DNA of 32,787 bases from Syntrophaceae bacterium (GTDB lineage: Bacteria; Desulfobacterota; Syntrophia; Syntrophales; UBA5619): positions 1-32,787 of the forward strand of contig PLLC01000089.1 of assembly GCA_003141195.1 (NCBI GenBank), given 5' to 3'. A model generated the notes under the pieces. That model ran no database searches and was not told the DNA's origin. It saw nothing but the letters and a program-made list of their open reading frames with translations. This document shows positions 16,492 to 31,878 of this stretch, one piece after another. The position numbers and the translations under genes are program-made. Each line of letters begins with the position of its first letter. Within the stretch, counting starts at the first letter, position 1.

Positions 16492-18656
16492 ACGAGGAGA
16501 AGGGCAAGCGCGGCGAGGAGGATCATCCCCCTCAGGGTTCCGGCGAGGCCGAGGAGGGGGATGAGGGCGAGGCTCCCCAGGATAGCGCCGAGGCAGCCGC
16601 CGATGAGGTCCGCCGCGTAGAGGGGGCCGATGACCTTCTTCTGTTCCCGAACGCCGCGAAGGCTGGCATAGGCGAAGAGGCCGCCGACCAGAAATCCGGC
16701 GGCGGCAAGGAGCACCGCCGTCAGGAGGAGGCCGCCGGCGGCCCCGCCGGTCACGATCCCGATCGCGGCGAAACCAAGGAGGCTGAAACCGGCCAGGAGG
16801 GCGCAGCCCCATCCCCGGGTCCGTTTTTTCTTGACGCCCGTCCCGAGGATCAGATCCCGGAAGACCGGCGCCCCGAGGGCCAGGCCGGCCATGAACGCCG
16901 CGAGGAGGAGGCCGATGTCCTGGTAGAGGACGCCCTCCTTCGCCTGGTAGGCGAGGATGAGGACCGATTCGCATACGATGCCGAGAAATCCGGCGACGAC
17001 GGCCAGGAGCAACCGCCTCCAGGCGGGCCGCAGGCGGCTTCCAAGAAACAGGAGCGCCAAGCCGATCCCCAAAATCCACCCGATTTTCCCGAACCCCTTT
17101 CCTTCAGCTCCGAAACCGGGCAGCTCCGCGAGCGACAGACTCGGGAAGAATCGCGAGAGCCAGGACATCACCGCATAGGGGTAGCAGACTGGCCGGATGT
17201 CGGTGTTTTCCGGAACGTCCGTTTCTTTCAGGCGTTTCTCAACGTCGGCGAAACGGTCGTTCGTGAAGAGATAGCGGATGTAGGGCGGCGAGACGAGGCG
17301 GGTCTGGAATCCCCGTTCCCGGAGGCGGTCGGTCAGGATTTCCGGTGACCGGGGGAGGGGGGCGGCGGATGCGGTCATCACCGTCATTTCCCCCGGCAGG
17401 ACGAGGACCTCCGGAAAGACGGAGGCGAGGGCATGATAAACGCTTGCCGTCCGGCGGGTCATCTGCGGCGTCCAGAGGTTCTCGGCGGCGGGGAGACGCA
17501 GCGCGACGATTCCGCCGGGATGGAGACGTGCGGCGCACTGGGCGAAGAATTCCCGCGTGTAGAAGCGGTTCGTCTCTCCCGACGACGGCTCCGGCATGCC
17601 GACGAGGATCAGGTCCCAGGCAAAACCCCTGTTCTTCAGGAAATGCCGCGGATCGGCCCGGGTGATACGGACGGCGGGGTCCGTCAGCGACGCCCGGATG
17701 TCCGCGGGGAGATGGCGCCGGAGAAGGGCAATCGGCTCAAGGTCGAGGACGACGGCGTCGATCCGCACTGGCCGGTGCCGGAGGAGCTCGCGGAGGGTTC
17801 CGTCCCATCCCCCGCCGAGGACGAGGATCCGCCGCGGCTCCGGGTGCTGGAGGGCCGTCAGGTGGGCGAAGAGCTCCGCCTCCGTTCCCCCGCTTTCGAA
17901 GGCGAGGGCATCGTTCTCGAATACGGAGACTTGTCCGGCGAGAACCGTGGCGGTGATCCGTCCGTAGGGAGAGTCCCGTGTCACGAGGAGCCCCGGGTGG
18001 TTCCAGCCCGTCATCCGCCGGTCCAGGGGGGACGCCTGATAGAGGATGGCGATCAGGAGCGCAGCCATAGCGACAGCGACAACACGGCCAGGCCGGCTTC
18101 CTTTTCCCGGGAAGAGGAAAAGGGCCGCGGCGACGGCAATCAGGCCGCAGGCGACGGCAAGGGGGAGGTTCTGGACGCCGTAGCGGAGACAGAGCGTCGC
18201 CAGCAGACCTCCGGCGAGGCCCCCCGCGCTTTCGATCCCGTAGGCGCCGGCGAGCGTCCGGCCCCGTTCCGCATGGAGACCGGCGGCCTCCCGGAACAGG
18301 AGGCCCGAGAGTAGGCCGGCGGGCAGCAGGGCGATCACCAGCGCCGCCATCTGCCGGGGAAAGGGGAGGTAGGCGCCGGGGATGCCGCCGAGGAGGAGGC
18401 GGCTCGCCCGGAGGAAGACGACGCCGAGGGGGAGGAAGAGGGCGAAGCACAGAAACAAAACGGCTGGCCGGCCGGCGGAGGGGCGCCGGCCGCCGATGAA
18501 CGCCCCCACAGCGGTCAGGAGCATCCAGACCGCCAGGGCGATGAGGTAGATCAGCTCGATTCCGTAAAAGGCGACGTTCAGCTCCCGCAGCAGAACGATC
18601 TGCCCGAAGAGCGAGACGAGGCCTGTCAGGAACAGCGCGGCGACGTCGGCGATCAT
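16488..18656 (-). CDS. Multi-spanning membrane protein with spermidine-synthase-like domain
   Basis: 722 aa. About seven hydrophobic helices (1-215), then a Rossmann methyltransferase/spermidine-synthase-like domain (about 260-430) with ILVLGGGWDGTLRE near 275, AVVLDLEPIALLRRHLP, MPEPSSGETNRFYTREFF near 352 and an ALRLP segment. More helices follow (about 515-722). This is the fused membrane aminopropyltransferase-like family common in anaerobes. Where spermidine synthase has the catalytic aspartate (consensus D-x-x-D-P), this protein has VGMPEPSS, so true spermidine synthesis is doubtful. The ATG overlaps the stop of the upstream mini-ORF as ATGA. Location next to AMMECR1 sequence ties it to the AmmeMemoRadiSam locus 10 kb away. 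Confidence 0.8.
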   Translation of the reverse strand: MIADVAALFLTGLVSLFGQIVLLRELNVAFYGIELIYLIALAVWMLLTAVGAFIGGRRPSAGRPAVLFLCFALFLPLGVVFLRASRLLLGGIPGAYLPFPRQMAALVIALLPAGLLSGLLFREAAGLHAERGRTLAGAYGIESAGGLAGGLLATLCLRYGVQNLPLAVACGLIAVAAALFLFPGKGSRPGRVVAVAMAALLIAILYQASPLDRRMTGWNHPGLLVTRDSPYGRITATVLAGQVSVFENDALAFESGGTEAELFAHLTALQHPEPRRILVLGGGWDGTLRELLRHRPVRIDAVVLDLEPIALLRRHLPADIRASLTDPAVRITRADPRHFLKNRGFAWDLILVGMPEPSSGETNRFYTREFFAQCAARLHPGGIVALRLPAAENLWTPQMTRRTASVYHALASVFPEVLVLPGEMTVMTASAAPLPRSPEILTDRLRERGFQTRLVSPPYIRYLFTNDRFADVEKRLKETDVPENTDIRPVCYPYAVMSWLSRFFPSLSLAELPGFGAEGKGFGKIGWILGIGLALLFLGSRLRPAWRRLLLAVVAGFLGIVCESVLILAYQAKEGVLYQDIGLLLAAFMAGLALGAPVFRDLILGTGVKKKRTRGWGCALLAGFSLLGFAAIGIVTGGAAGGLLLTAVLLAAAGFLVGGLFAYASLRGVREQKKVIGPLYAADLIGGCLGAILGSLALIPLLGLAGTLRGMILLAALALLLV

Positions 18657-18694
18657 CGGTGTTCCGCTTCGTCAAAAACGATCGCCTGGAGGGT
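18624..18694. repeat. 71-bp boundary direct repeat, left copy
   Basis: 69 of 71 bases equal 29057-29127 (offset 10433; differences at 18672 and 18691). It covers the last codons of an AMMECR1-like reading frame and the first 11 codons of the spermidine-synthase-like gene. Similarity to the left of it stops abruptly; to the right it continues only as protein-level similarity. Confidence 0.9.
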
Positions 18695-18793
18695 GGAGAA
18701 ACACGCCCCCGCCTCCTGCCGGGCTTTCGCCGACAGCCCCGCCTTCCGGGAGCTGAAGACGACAACCGGCAGTCCGATTCGCATGAATATCAT
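18653..18793 (-). pseudogene. Internally deleted Memo/AMMECR1 minigene (46 codons)
   Basis: An open frame with AGGAGATCC ahead of its ATG. Its end, KAGLSAKARQEAGACF then STLQAIVFDEAEHR, matches the AMMECR1 C-terminus encoded at 29086 (KAGLPSGAWRDGASF, LTFQAIVFGEAEHR). Its start, MIFMRIGLPVVVFS, resembles the first residues of the same intact protein (MTILQFGIPIVALS). About 460 residues between them are absent. The stop overlaps the next start (ATGA), so it may still serve as a translational leader for the membrane protein. The C-terminal match is solid; the N-terminal match is suggestive. Confidence 0.7.
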
Positions 18794-21043: not shown

Positions 21044-24000
21044 TCAATTGACGTTCATTTTGTTTTTGCACGCCGGGTATGCAGTACAACCATAAAATTC
21101 GCCATACCTGCTACTCCGAAGTTTCATGGGAGCACCACATTTGTCACAGTGAGGAGCCTCGCCAGTTTGTTTCCCAGACGCCCCCTTTTGCCTTCGTGGT
21201 CTGTCAAAGCTCTCCCTCCAAGTACAGGTGTCGAGCTCGCAGTCCCAATAAGGACCATACGGCCCCTTACGATATGATGTTCTTGCCCCACAAATTGGGC
21301 ACCGAGGGTTTTCCGCCCTAGTAGAAATTCCCTCTGCAGCATCGGGTCGCACGCCACGGTCAAGGGCCATGAACGCAGAGAGCTGAAGAGCTAAATCCTT
21401 TCCCTCGATCCGTGCCATAACCTCATCAGTGCGTGTGGTGTGGGACAATGGGTTCAACGAGCCAAACCAGACGATTTCATCATCTATCACAACGACTTTT
21501 TCATGGATTTCGCCTCGCGTATCCACAACACAACCTATATGTTCTAGCCCATCAAGGGCGGCCTTCCCTTGTTCAACAGGAATGCTGCCATTATTCTTCG
21601 GTGGCCGAGTCACGCAACGAATCGCAACTCCCTCGGCTTTTTTTCGCCGGAAGAGCGCCTCGTAAGCAGCAACTCGCTGTTCGGTTACAAAGCCGGAGAA
21701 GATGGCAATGCCCTTTTGGGCTCGATCTAGATCCGCCATGCAAACTTGTTCAAAGTCATGTTGATTGAAAAGCCCGGTTTTCTCGACATCCGGCGACAAA
21801 TCAAAAGGCCTCCCAAGGCGCCGCAAATCCTCAGCAATGGGATACATTGCCAATACATCGCGGACATCGACCACACTACCGCGATCCTGCATCTCCGACA
21901 AGATATCGCGGAGTATCGCATAGCAAGGAAGCTTCTGGTCGAGATACGCAAGGTTGGCGAATACTATGAGATGGCCTTTGGCCCTACTTACGGCGACGTT
22001 GAAAAGCATCGCCCCTGCATCATCGACGTCGTCGGCATCAAGGAATATACCTGCACGTTGCTCTCCGTGGCTGTCGGGGATGTCCATGATCATCACGTGC
22101 TTTTCATCGCCCTGGTAACGATGCACGGTACCGGCCTCGACCATATCGCTCAGCTTAGACCCTTTGAGAATGCGTTGGAGTACTTTAGATTGTGCGGCAT
22201 ATGGGGTACAGACACCAACTCGAGATATATTTTGTAAGTAGCCGCAGGACTCCAGGAAACGGCACAGATTCCTCACGGCCAAAGCGTTCATGAGGTTATA
22301 GCGAGAATTGAACGGATCGCGGCTCACAAAGGGCCAGATTGGCGACGTATCGACGATTGTGAGAGGTCCGTCGAATGGCTGCGGAGGACGTGCCCCAGAC
22401 GGGACATGAGGATAACCAGTAGCTGTTTGTAATTTACCCTCGTACATGCGCAACGAGATTAAGCGGCATATCTGGTCGTCCATCCGGTATTGCTCTTTGA
22501 GCATCGCAACGCGTTTGCAGTGTCCCTCCTTCAGCATTTTCTTGTCAATTTCATTCGAGCGAAACACATCACCACCACCCGCTTTGAAAATTGCCTTTTG
22601 CTCAGTCTGGACGATGGGTGCCAACTGCCTGAAATCACAACTTTCTCTTTCGCTAGGCCCGCCGCGTTGAAGAGGGCCGGCAGCATTACCATGGATGCTT
22701 CGTCGACTATCACCACGTCAAATTCGCTGAAAAGTTGCGGGCTAAGGTATGCTTTGGTAACCGTTGCTCCAACAATGCGAGCCCGATCCATGATTGATTT
22801 TCTGATGTCATCGAGCTGCTTGTTGATGTCGGATATTTCCTCAATGAGCGGGCGTTTCTGCTCCTCAGCCTGTTCAAGCTGACGCTCAACCTGTTTTCGG
22901 TCTACACCCGCAACGGCCTGCTTCGCTTGATGGATAGAAGTATCTATTCCACTCAGGCGTTCCTTGAGGTCGCGGAGCTTCTGTTCCGAGGAATCAACTT
23001 GCTTTTCTAATACCACGAGATCGGCACTTGCCAGTCGTATGTCTTTCTCGAGGGTATCAAGCGAACGCAAAAATACACGTTTTATGGTGCCTGCCAGCTG
23101 AACTTTCTGTTTTTCTGCTTGTAGGGCTTCAAACCGCTTCTCTAAAGTTCGCTTCCGCTCGACAACCGAATTGCGGTGAGTCTGGGCTTGTTGAAAGGTG
23201 GTTGCAACGCGCCCCCTCTCGGCAACAAGGCCGTCCAAGACGATAAATGCCTTCATCAGTTCTGTGGCGCGAGCCACAGAGGCGTTAATCCGTTCGAGCT
23301 GTACCTCCAGTTCCTCTTTTCGAGCAAGGAGCGTCCGCGATTTTCTCTCGACAATCCCGTCAACGGTGATTTGCTCTGTCCAGTCTTGTTTTAGCTCACT
23401 GTCGACAATCTGTCCAACTCGAATGATCTGCCCCTCCTCAACCGCAGGGTGTTGCCTGCCGAATCGTATACAAAGCTTTAGGAGCACTTGATCAACTGCC
23501 TTGTTTGTATTAGAGCAAAGAAGAATCCGCTTGCTCCACTGAATAAGGACCTGACACAGAGCGCTCAGGGTCACTGTCTTGCCGGTTCCCGGTGGTCCCC
23601 ACAGATAGAATATCTCATTGGCGAGGATCTTCGCGATGGCTTCCTTCTGATAGGCATTGAGGCCGTCTACGAACTCTGCTGGGACGAAAGCAGGAGCGAG
23701 TTCATCGCCGATATTGAAAATGACTGACTCAGCGAGTTTGGTATTGAAATTGGTTATCTCACTTTTCGCAATCTTTTCCAGACGATTGCGAAGAGCCTCC
23801 AGCATTGCAGTATTGTCAATCCGCACAATACATGCGGCAATACGCGGGCCAAAGTCATCCTGCAGCGAGATCACTATCTGGTTGCCCAAAAAGGCCACTA
23901 TGCGGCCTTCCGACTGGGTGCCCCCGACTACAGCTATGACCGCGGCACCCTCGAACAGTTCAGCATCTTCGTTGTAGGGAAACTGATATCCGTTTTCTTT

Positions 24001-24618
24001 GCCATCCAGTTGCACCCTCACACCGCTCTCAAGCACGACTTGTTTGAAAGCCGTTTTTTTGCGGCGCATTTCAGCGACAAGTGCTTTGACTCCAGCTTCG
24101 TATCGCTCGACTAACGGGGCATCTTTCCTAAACTCTAGTTTGACCTCATCCTTGAGGTCAAACTGCCGCTTAGCCGGAACCCCGTCCAGCTTACCAGGCT
24201 TCCGCATTTTCCCCATGCGAGGTTCGCGTGGAGGTTCTTCCCTTGCCTCCTTGTTGCTTGAACTATCTGCCGACTCGGTTTTAGCGGCGGTAGACCCAGT
24301 GGTTTTTTTTGTTTCTCCATGCGGTTTATTATCATCACCAAACAAGCTTTTCTGCTCTGGCTTCGAAGTCTGAGATTGGCGGATCTCATGCTTTGGTGAG
24401 TTGTTCTTTAGCGGAGATTCTGTCTTAGGGCTGCCGCTACTGCTGGCAAGTACTTCGATCCTTCCTTCAACCTTGGAGCGCAAGGTTTTCATTTTCGGCG
24501 TTGAACGGAGCTGCAATTCAGCAAGAACCTGCTTAAGCACCTCAAGGTCATTCTGATTTTCGTCGAAAACATGCCTTATCTGGTCCCCGGTAAATTTAAA
24601 ATACGGTCTGTTTGACAT
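21044..24618 (-). pseudogene. SF1 helicase-PLD nuclease, Mokosh type II-like, frameshifted in motif III
   Basis: Two overlapping frames together encode about 1190 aa. The first (from ATG 24618) has a basic and acidic N-terminal region, Walker A GPPGTGKT near 340, a long coiled coil (about 425-620) and DVVIVDEAS near 635. The second has QLAPIVQTEQ, GVCTPYAAQ, VHRYQGDE and NVAVSRAKGHL (helicase domain 2), a phospholipase-D motif IHEKVVVIDDEIVWFGSLN, and two C-terminal zinc ribbons (CPICGARTSYRK, CDKCGAPMKLRS). The frame breaks near 22625 inside the VISGD-xx-QLAP motif, consistent with loss of about 10 bases. Helicase plus PLD in one polypeptide matches the anti-phage Mokosh type II layout. It is a pseudogene unless the break is a sequencing error. 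Confidence 0.75.
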
Positions 24619-24639
24619 ATGACAGGCCACCTAATTAGT

Positions 24640-28989: not shown

Positions 28990-29056
28990 TTCGTTTCTCC
29001 TTTTGTCTATTCAGGGGCAAGATTTTCCACCTTTGCTGCCTCGTATTGCTGAGGTG

Positions 29057-29089
29057 TGTCAGGAACAGCGCGGCGACGTCGGCGATCAT
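29057..29089 (-). pseudogene. 5' stub of the spermidine-synthase-like gene
   Basis: The AMMECR1 stop overlaps an ATG (ATGA) that opens MIADVAALFLT, identical to the first 11 codons of the membrane protein at 16488-18656. After that the sequence is unrelated. The intact operon therefore originally ran from AMMECR1 straight into the spermidine-synthase-like gene. Confidence 0.85.
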
Positions 29090-29127
29090 CGGTGTTCCGC
29101 TTCGCCAAAAACGATCGCCTGGAAGGT
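29057..29127. repeat. 71-bp boundary direct repeat, right copy
   Basis: Pairs with 18624-18694 (two differences, at 29105 and 29124). Together the copies bracket about 10.4 kb of accessory DNA. Confidence 0.9.
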
Positions 29128-30618
29128 CAGGAAGCTCGCCCCGTCTCTCCAGGCGCCGGACGGAAGTCCCGCCTTCTGGCTCAGGTGGTCCAACATCTCA
29201 TCCCTTCCCCATCCCTGTTCCGGGGCGACCTGGGGGAGAAACACGGCGGATTTTCCCCCCTTCTGGAGGAGTACGCCATCCCGGCCGACGAAGATGTCGT
29301 TCGGGCCGGAGACCGGTTTCATCGGCGTCAGCACGGAGATCTCGATTTCCAGATCGGCCAGCTCCCGGAGTGTTACGGGGCTGAAGCGAGGATCCTCGAA
29401 GGCGGATTGGAGGGCCATCGCCCCGACGAGCTCGGCGAGCGGCCGGTCCGGGACCATCCGGCCGATGCAGCCGCGCAGGTCTCCCTGCTTTTTGAGGGTG
29501 ACGAAGACCCCGCGCGGTTCGCGCAGGATGGGGCTCGAAAGCCGCGGCAGGGGGACCATCTTCATCGTCAGGAAACGGGAGATCGTCTCCCGCGCGAGGC
29601 GAAGCAGGTATTTCCGGTCGGCGGGTCCAATGGACCCTTCCGCCGCCATTGCCGCAGCCGGTCGCGCGGCGGGGGTCTCCTTTTTCAGATCGGCGGCCAG
29701 GACGACCGCCCCGTAGCCGACGACGCGCTCCCGCTCGCCGATGGGGAGATTCCCCGAGTTGGCGTAGCTCACGATTTTTCCCCCGGTCGCCCCCATCGCC
29801 TTGGCGGCGGCCATCGCGGCCATGATGGGGGCTTCGCCGCAGGCGCAGGTGGAGAGGTTCGGAATCCGCCGGGCCATCTGCGCTTGGACGGCCGTATGGA
29901 GTGCCACCGGATCGAGTGTGGCGACGGCCTCCAGCGTCTTCATGTCCGCGGTCTCGGCGTCTTTCGCCGACGGGTAGTGGGAGAGGTCGGAGCTGGCGAC
30001 GATCACGGCGCGGCGGCCCTTCAGGACCGAGGCCAATGCGTTTCCGAAGCGGGTGCAGAGGGCGGCGTCCGCTTCGCCGACGATCGCGGCGACGATCTTC
30101 GCCTGGGGAAAGAGGACTTGGACGAAGGGAACCTGGACCTCGACCGAGTGTTCCCGGACGTGCGGCCCCTTGTCGAGGGCGCATTCGGGCGAAGCGGCAA
30201 GGAGAGCCGCCGTGAGATCCCCGTCCACCTTTGCGGTTCCGAGCGGCGTCCGGAAGCCGCCGCCCGGGTAGAGGGCGATCTTGCGGAGATCCGGCGTTGT
30301 GTGGTTCGTCCCGAGGAGGACGACGACGTCATAGGCCCCGCCGCGGACCTGGTTCCAGCCGTCGGCGCAGATCTGGCCGGAGTAGATGTACCCCGCGTGG
30401 GGGACGACGATGGCGAGGGGTTTTTTCGCCTGCGGCGGCAGCGCGTCCTCCATGAATTTTTCGACGGCAAGTTTCAGAACGGTTGCCGATTCGGGATAGA
30501 ACTGCCCGGCCACGACGGGGGGACGCACCTCGCCCCCCCCGTCCTTTCCGGCCATACCGGTCGTGGCCACCCCCAGGCTGAGGGCAACGATGGGAATACC
30601 AAATTGCAGAATGGTCAT
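29086..30618 (-). CDS. Memo-AMMECR1 fusion protein (AmmeMemoRadiSam system A+B), with signal peptide
   Basis: 510 aa. The N-terminus MTILQFGIPIVALSLGVATT-GMAG looks like a Sec signal peptide. A Memo domain follows (about 30-290) with the extradiol-dioxygenase-like metal residues in VVPHAGYIYSG, GTNHTTPD, SSDLSHYP and CACGEAPIM. A linker of about 30 residues leads to an AMMECR1 domain (about 325-510) with the hallmark GDLRGCIGRM. I chose the ATG at 30618 because AGGAGAG lies just upstream; the ATG at 30636 would place that site inside the gene. Both domains are usually separate proteins or fused, and their reaction is unknown. It starts 18 nt after the radical SAM gene and formerly preceded the spermidine-synthase-like gene. 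Confidence 0.88.
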   Translation of the reverse strand: MTILQFGIPIVALSLGVATTGMAGKDGGGEVRPPVVAGQFYPESATVLKLAVEKFMEDALPPQAKKPLAIVVPHAGYIYSGQICADGWNQVRGGAYDVVVLLGTNHTTPDLRKIALYPGGGFRTPLGTAKVDGDLTAALLAASPECALDKGPHVREHSVEVQVPFVQVLFPQAKIVAAIVGEADAALCTRFGNALASVLKGRRAVIVASSDLSHYPSAKDAETADMKTLEAVATLDPVALHTAVQAQMARRIPNLSTCACGEAPIMAAMAAAKAMGATGGKIVSYANSGNLPIGERERVVGYGAVVLAADLKKETPAARPAAAMAAEGSIGPADRKYLLRLARETISRFLTMKMVPLPRLSSPILREPRGVFVTLKKQGDLRGCIGRMVPDRPLAELVGAMALQSAFEDPRFSPVTLRELADLEIEISVLTPMKPVSGPNDIFVGRDGVLLQKGGKSAVFLPQVAPEQGWGRDEMLDHLSQKAGLPSGAWRDGASFLTFQAIVFGEAEHR

Positions 30619-30636
30619 GATCTCTCTCCTTTCCAC

Positions 30637-31878
30637 TTAACTCCAGACGCCGGCGATCCTTCCGCCGCAGAAGCCGCAGCGGCCGTTTGTTACATGCATT
30701 TCCACGGTGAAGAATCCCGTGCGTTTGATGACCGCCTTCCCGCAGGAAGGGCAGTAGGTATGGTTCCCCGGATGGTCCGGGACGTTTCCAACATAGGCGT
30801 AATGCAGCCCCCGCCCCAGCGCCGTCTCCCGTGCCCGCTCCAGCGTCGCCACCGGCGTGGGCGACAGGTTCCGGAGCTGGTAATCCGGGTGGAAGCGCGT
30901 GAAGTGGAGGGGGACGTCGGGTCCGACTTCTCCCAGGACCCAGTCGATCAGGCTGCGGAGCATCTTCTCGGAGTCGTTGAGCGTCGGGACGACGAGGTTG
31001 ACGATCTCGAGATGGGCGCGGCTTTTGGCGATCTGTTTGATGCTCCTCAGGACGGGCCTCAGCTCCGTGCCACAGACGTCGCGGTAGAACGCCTCGTCGT
31101 ACCCCTTCAGGTCGATCTTGATCGCATCGAGTGTCTCACAGAGCTCCGCGAGCGGCGCCTCATTCATGATCCCGCAACTGATCAGGACGGGGCGGAGCCC
31201 CTGCTTCTTCGCCTCCCGGGCGATGTCGATCATGTACTCCGCAAAGACCGTCGGCTCGTTGTAGGTGAAGGCGATCACCGGCGCCTGCCGGTCCCGGGCG
31301 GAACGGACGATCCGGTCGGGGGGGATTGGGGGGCTTTCATAATCCTCCGGGGAGGCCTGGGAGATCTCCCAGTTCTGGCAGAACTTGCAACGCAGCGGGC
31401 AGCCGGAGGTCGCGAGCGAATAGGCCGCGGCGCCGGGAAGAAAGTGGTAGAAGGGCTTCTTTTCGATCGGGTCAATATGGATGGTGATCGGGCGGCCGTA
31501 GACAAGGCTCTTCAGTTCGCCGCCGACGTTCATCCTTGTGCGGCAGCGGCCGCGCTCGCCGGCCCTGATGATGCAGCCTTGGGCGCAGAGAAGGCACTTG
31601 ACGATCCCGGCCTCATGCCGTTGGCGTTTCCCCTTGAGGATTTCCGGGGAGGCGTGGCACGACCGGCAGTCGGCGCCGGCGAGGGGAACGGAGGTCCAGA
31701 AGCGCGCCCGGGGGGCGAGACGGACCAGGTCGGACTTCGGATCGAGGGCGAAGAGGCAACCGACGTCTCCGCCCGCAAGCAGGCGCTCCCAGAGGGGGGA
31801 GGAGAGGCACAGCCCCGCCCCGCCGAGGATCGGGGCGATCCCGGCCAGAGTCTTCAAAAAAGCGCGTCGGGAGATCAT
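30637..31878 (-). CDS. AmmeMemoRadiSam system radical SAM enzyme with Tat signal and CxxCH motif
   Basis: 413 aa. It starts MISRRAFLKTLAG, a consensus Tat signal (SRRxFLK) with a hydrophobic stretch (about 11-27). An N-terminal extension contains CRSCH (71-75), the form of a haem-c site. Next come CLLCAQGC and C112 of the PflA-like N-region, then the radical SAM motif CPLRCKFC (C160, C164, C167), the QNWEIS sequence typical of this family, and a barrel. The C-terminus has a zinc-ribbon (CPSCG and CGFCG). Usual family members are about 330-340 aa and lack the extension. AAAGGAG precedes the ATG. It heads the operon with Memo-AMMECR1. Reaction unknown; a radical SAM enzyme outside the cytoplasm would be odd because SAM and a reductant are needed. 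Confidence 0.88.
   Translation of the reverse strand: MISRRAFLKTLAGIAPILGGAGLCLSSPLWERLLAGGDVGCLFALDPKSDLVRLAPRARFWTSVPLAGADCRSCHASPEILKGKRQRHEAGIVKCLLCAQGCIIRAGERGRCRTRMNVGGELKSLVYGRPITIHIDPIEKKPFYHFLPGAAAYSLATSGCPLRCKFCQNWEISQASPEDYESPPIPPDRIVRSARDRQAPVIAFTYNEPTVFAEYMIDIAREAKKQGLRPVLISCGIMNEAPLAELCETLDAIKIDLKGYDEAFYRDVCGTELRPVLRSIKQIAKSRAHLEIVNLVVPTLNDSEKMLRSLIDWVLGEVGPDVPLHFTRFHPDYQLRNLSPTPVATLERARETALGRGLHYAYVGNVPDHPGNHTYCPSCGKAVIKRTGFFTVEMHVTNGRCGFCGGRIAGVWS

Follow-up and report, generated by a model that had tools for sequence, protein, structure and literature searches.

The window analysed here is a stretch of 32,787 nucleotides, comprising positions 1 to 32,787 of contig PLLC01000089.1 from the Syntrophaceae bacterium assembly GCA_003141195.1. 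All three AmmeMemoRadiSam domains exceed their curated cut-offs within it, one in the radical-SAM enzyme AmrS and the other two, Memo and AMMECR1, fused in a single protein (Table 1). The amrS reading frame starts with ATG and the N-terminus of its product is MISRRAFLKTLAGIAPILGGAGLCLSSP. Residues 87–412 match TIGR04337 over profile positions 6–333 of 349 with 354.6 bits (cut-off 220), PF04055 is matched with 64.8 bits, and the AlphaFold2 model of the protein has a pLDDT of 85.9. PflA (3cb8) is the closest solved fold and sequence and has the radical-SAM core with CX3CX2C in common with AmrS, but the match is confined to this core (TM-score 0.48 of the query), and PflA has neither the signal, the CxxCH insert, the four-Cys motif nor the C-terminal Cys pairs of AmrS. 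The Memo-AMMECR1 fusion begins with a GTG at 30636 that abuts the amrS stop codon (an alternative ATG lies at 30618), and its two domains match the solved MEMO1 and PH0010. Relative to the AmmeMemoRadiSam system as defined by TIGR04337, TIGR04336 and TIGR04335, with which the window shares the three domains as well as the cluster, SAM-site, four-Cys and C-terminal CxxC/CxxC residues, the differences are that AmrS here is Tat-signalled, that Memo and AMMECR1 are fused and bear a signal, and that a spermidine-synthase-like membrane protein has been added as the product of a third gene.

Table 1. Features of the window, with strand and supporting evidence.
Feature	Coordinates	Strand	Evidence
amrS, encoding an AmmeMemoRadiSam radical-SAM enzyme of 413 aa with Tat signal	30637..31878	-	TIGR04337, PF04055, AlphaFold2 model
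Tat signal peptide, AmrS residues 2-28 (ISRRAFLK and hydrophobic stretch)	31795..31875	-	TIGR01409; RRx[FLIMV] in homologues
CRSCH in the insert (residues 71-75), putative attachment site for haem c	31654..31668	-	CxxCH in 46/46 insert-bearing sequences, themselves recognised by CxxCH
Second conserved His (His88), possible distal ligand of haem	31615..31617	-	Matching His in 46/46
Four-Cys motif of the family, C95-C98-C102-C112 (site for auxiliary cluster or metal)	31543..31596	-	>90% conserved in either AmrS group, exported or cytosolic
Radical-SAM motif CX3CX2C, C160-C164-C167	31378..31401	-	Conserved in both AmrS groups
Memo-AMMECR1 fusion with N-terminal signal peptide	29086..30636	-	TIGR04336 243.9 bits, TIGR04335 172.1 bits
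Third cassette gene; spermidine-synthase-like domain (outside, by prediction) between 7 and 6-7 TM helices	16488..18656	-	PF01564, positive-inside count, AlphaFold2
Direct repeat copy 1, at start of third gene, island boundary	18618..18709	.	92 bp, 90% identical to 29051-29142
Direct repeat copy 2, at AMMECR1 3' end, other island boundary	29051..29142	.	90% identical to copy 1

The preliminary description of this DNA had taken SRRAFLK at the N-terminus of AmrS to be a Tat motif. Indeed, TIGR01409 (TAT_signal_seq) matches residues 2–28 with 19.8 bits, above the cut-off of 16.7. We scanned 84,980 bacterial and archaeal genomes for homologues and took the best 80 loci; among these, which are biased towards full-length matches because similarity to the query was the selection criterion, RRx[FLIMV] is present at the N-terminus of 60 of the 61 nearest homologues, and the one exception (L044) is truncated by the end of its contig. 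An Acidobacteriota sample, chosen otherwise, includes both signalled and unsignalled AmrS. In an alignment of 46 AmrS sequences from several phyla, R5 never varies and R4 shows at least 90% conservation, and across phyla the signals have a hydrophobic stretch and frequently an AxA site. Phyla with the full-length form include Thermodesulfobacteriota, Acidobacteriota, Calditrichota, Bacteroidota, Ignavibacteriota and Latescibacterota, and the Tat signal is more widely distributed among AmrS than the CxxCH motif discussed below. Conservation of both SRR and CxxCH among close homologues had been singled out beforehand as one of the points on which the preliminary description would stand or fall, and both are conserved. 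An additional exported AmrS lineage (L065–L080) has T(R/K)RE(A/F)LK signals ending in AQ and is devoid of both CxxCH and an adjoining Memo; the L065 and L072 genomes have a signal-bearing Memo-AMMECR1 located elsewhere.

Turning to the partner genes, Memo-AMMECR1 adjoins amrS at 54 of the 58 loci with enough flank, and tblastn revealed a 55th (L050) that had been missed by our script. A hydrophobic N-terminus is found in practically all Memo-AMMECR1 homologues from the cassette, many of them with a lipobox, and the Memo copies without one are mostly single-domain proteins located elsewhere, together with the fused L164. Genomes whose Memo does not adjoin amrS encode one with a signal elsewhere, as seen for Desulfonema magnum (L169), L038, L041, L077 and L082 in addition to L065 and L072. 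In Desulfonema magnum amrS is at L030, and L169 carries the third gene together with the signal-bearing Memo. Right after a pair formed by the third gene (spe) and amrS, at L145:13999-14877, there is also a Memo paralogue of 454 aa that is divergent (about 100 bits).

The third gene, of about 720 aa, lies no more than 4.5 kb from amrS in 42 of 46 loci, and all 24 aligned members match PF01564. The linkage is retained at L144 despite a permuted order (memo-amme, spe, amrS), and in L145–L147 spe lies next to amrS. In the AlphaFold2 model (pLDDT 89.3) seven helices precede the domain, and lysine plus arginine number about 18 in the loops assigned inside versus about 5 in those outside, on which grounds the spermidine-synthase-like domain is predicted to be periplasmic. 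The closest structures to this domain are polyamine aminopropyltransferases/spermidine synthases (1uir), of which the motifs on the SAM/dcSAM side are kept. Unlike 1uir, the domain is set between seven and six to seven transmembrane helices with a predicted periplasmic location, and the catalytic Asp of DxxDP is not conserved (IIDLTDP in 1uir versus LVGMPEP here); since the first Asp is replaced by Gly, we did not file the gene as a spermidine synthase.

In the window itself, the third gene and the fusion are about 10.4 kb apart, while they abut in L006, L019 and L155. The intervening DNA is an island bounded by the direct repeats listed in Table 1, with a Fic gene, a plasmid pRiA4b ORF-3-like gene and a partial integrase-like gene among its cargo. 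Other DNA occupies the same fusion/third-gene junction in L004, L005 and L011. Insertions that recurred at a single site would explain this most simply, and the junction has the look of a hotspot for them. Two overlapping reading frames of the island (21044-24630) correspond to the halves of an SF1 helicase, AAA_11 in the first and AAA_12, PLDc_2 and a Zn ribbon in the second; this may be a defence-like helicase-nuclease that is either frameshifted or made up of two genes.

The genome of the window contains another AmrS (L083:7220-8230), which is of the canonical cytosolic type, 336 aa long and without signal or insert; the unsignalled AmrS of relatives and of Acidobacteriota likewise have neither. 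Because the only Memo found in this genome (96% complete) is the signal-bearing fusion, the cytosolic AmrS seems to have no cytosolic Memo. In a quick tree of 124 AmrS domains, a branch with support 98 sets 25 of the 27 unsignalled sequences apart; across it lie all signal-bearing AmrS plus L070 and L075, in which no signal was recognised (the contig of L070 ends there), and L081, with a different signal. It could be argued that the RR stretch is vestigial, or a cytoplasm-facing anchor, and that AmrS, like its paralogues, acts on the cytoplasmic side, as would fit the location of the biochemically studied radical-SAM enzymes, all of which are cytoplasmic as far as we know. This is very improbable in our judgement: the twin arginines are near-invariant across phyla and followed by a hydrophobic stretch and often an AxA site, the Memo-AMMECR1 partner carries a signal or lipobox of its own, an RR signal anchor that left the C-terminal domain in the cytoplasm would run counter to the positive-inside rule, and the genome also encodes a separate, cytosolic AmrS. 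The preliminary description had raised the idea of an exported or membrane-tethered radical-SAM enzyme, and at the level of sequence export has good support in the conserved Tat signal, the signal-bearing adjoining partner and the predicted outside location of the soluble domain of the third protein. The strongest evidence for an exported system comes from the partner genes, which the preliminary description had not taken into account.

If AmrS is exported, does it turn over outside? SAM and low-potential electrons are found in the cytoplasm, and radical-SAM chemistry is regarded as cytoplasmic for that reason. An exported AmrS might instead be used a single time with SAM preloaded, or its cluster might have a structural or electron-transfer role. 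The cytoplasmic location of SAM is established knowledge and no SAM exporter has been shown, in line with such a protein, but the residues that bind SAM and the cluster are conserved in exported AmrS as they are in cytosolic AmrS: besides the cysteine motifs in Table 1, the alignment shows that T205, Y206 and P209 of the SAM site are kept in both groups, and the C-terminal Cys pairs (CxxC/CxxC) are identical between them. Moreover, a membrane protein with a SAM fold accompanies exported AmrS. We consider an exported AmrS that does not turn over to be unlikely.

CRSCH of AmrS sits in a short insert between the Tat signal and the family domain, which starts at residue 87. It had been described as part of an extension absent from usual family members; the unsignalled cytosolic copies do not have it. 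Among the non-redundant insert-bearing AmrS of a wider set, CxxCH is present in 46 of 46, bearing in mind that these sequences were recognised by CxxCH itself, and a further His is found 6–9 residues ahead of the first family Cys in all 46. The two central positions of CxxCH vary (A, S, I, L, T or Q). The whole insert is missing as a block from several Syntrophales lineages and is thus dispensable, and none of the remaining signal-bearing AmrS has a CxxC remnant at the insert position. The CxxCH-containing clade has support 100 and comprises 63 rows of the tree, 17 of them without CxxCH. On the best tree the CxxCH label changes five times; since well-supported branches force only one of these changes, we are unsure of the number of losses, and the history may be one gain followed by up to four losses in Syntrophales.

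To look for haem maturation, we initially used PF01578 as a marker, but it matched HemX-like proteins; ResB was added because PF01578 was too broad, and CcmF-type systems were judged by open-frame length. ResB is matched at 2.5e-83 in the genome of the window (G000). Cytochrome c maturation genes were found in 31 of 33 genomes with CxxCH versus 13 of 17 without it (Fisher p = 0.16, with one independent pair on supported branches), a comparison without the power to discriminate. Most CxxCH-less genomes retain ResB, and we rejected the possibility that CxxCH is absent owing to lost haem maturation. No cytochrome c family matched AmrS above the Pfam cut-off, and several sub-threshold matches were to cytochrome families; one short motif may be too little for profile detection. 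The CxxCH region of the AlphaFold2 model has a pLDDT below 60, and haem geometry was not read from the model for this reason.

These data bear on whether the conserved CxxCH carries haem c. Alternatively, CxxCH...H of an exported AmrS might be a structural site for zinc or another metal, or it might act as a redox dithiol. This would accommodate the dispensability of the insert and the failure of any cytochrome family to pass the Pfam cut-off, and neither the low-confidence region of the model nor the co-occurrence with Ccs demands haem. On the other hand, a CxxCH with variable middle residues and a second His in every one of the 46 sequences is more like a c-haem site than a zinc knuckle of the CPxCG kind, the predicted outer compartment suits a c-haem, cytochrome families do appear among the sub-threshold matches, and nearly all CxxCH genomes tested have a maturation system for c-haem. 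We give such a metal site or dithiol somewhat less than an even chance. Haem c is normally attached to unfolded chains exported by Sec, while Tat exports folded proteins; this, and the absence of CxxCH as a block where cytochrome c maturation persists, speaks against haem. A partial precedent is provided by the Split-Soret cytochromes c of Archaea, which combine c-haem motifs with predicted Tat signals but are not radical-SAM enzymes (PMC4429474). Taken together, haem c on the CxxCH of AmrS is plausible from sequence, with the chances about evenly balanced.

In summary, the window probably encodes an extracytoplasmic AmmeMemoRadiSam system, with a radical-SAM reaction at the envelope as the proposed mechanism. 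The Tat signal, the signal-bearing partner, the linkage of the three genes, the intact radical-SAM residues and the predicted topology all point in this direction, and the lack of an established source of SAM and low-potential electrons outside the cytoplasm is an argument against it. AmrS would acquire its Fe-S clusters in the cytoplasm and then be exported by Tat in the folded state, and the Memo-AMMECR1 fusion would leave by way of a signal peptide of its own and in many cases be a lipoprotein. The polytopic third protein would place its spermidine-synthase-like domain, a fold that binds SAM/dcSAM, on the outer side as well, and the three proteins could between them act on an envelope substrate through radical-SAM chemistry, or serve to mature a partner in such a reaction. 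We further propose, tentatively and as a rather less probable part of the model, that AmrS turns over outside the cytoplasm. The CxxCH would then bind haem c beside the auxiliary cluster, where the second His would ligate it on the distal side, and relay electrons from periplasmic cytochromes to the clusters, while the outward-facing membrane protein would, by conjecture, supply or bind SAM.

No description of an exported or periplasmic radical-SAM enzyme, or of a Memo-AMMECR1-radical-SAM system of this kind, was found in the literature searched, which included a minority of subscription papers, and we know of no biochemically studied radical-SAM enzyme outside the cytoplasm. Memo and AMMECR1 are conserved into humans and, to our knowledge, have no known molecular function; a study from 2019 reportedly tied Memo to nucleotide and isoprenoid modification. 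The cassette offers a handle on both proteins, as it links them to a radical-SAM partner and to a compartment with few, isolable substrates. That AmrS has a conserved export signal in many anaerobic bacteria also raises the question of the route by which cofactor and electrons would reach the outer compartment. If true, a conserved exported set present in multiple phyla would either break the rule that radical-SAM chemistry is confined to the cytoplasm or expose a new way of powering it.
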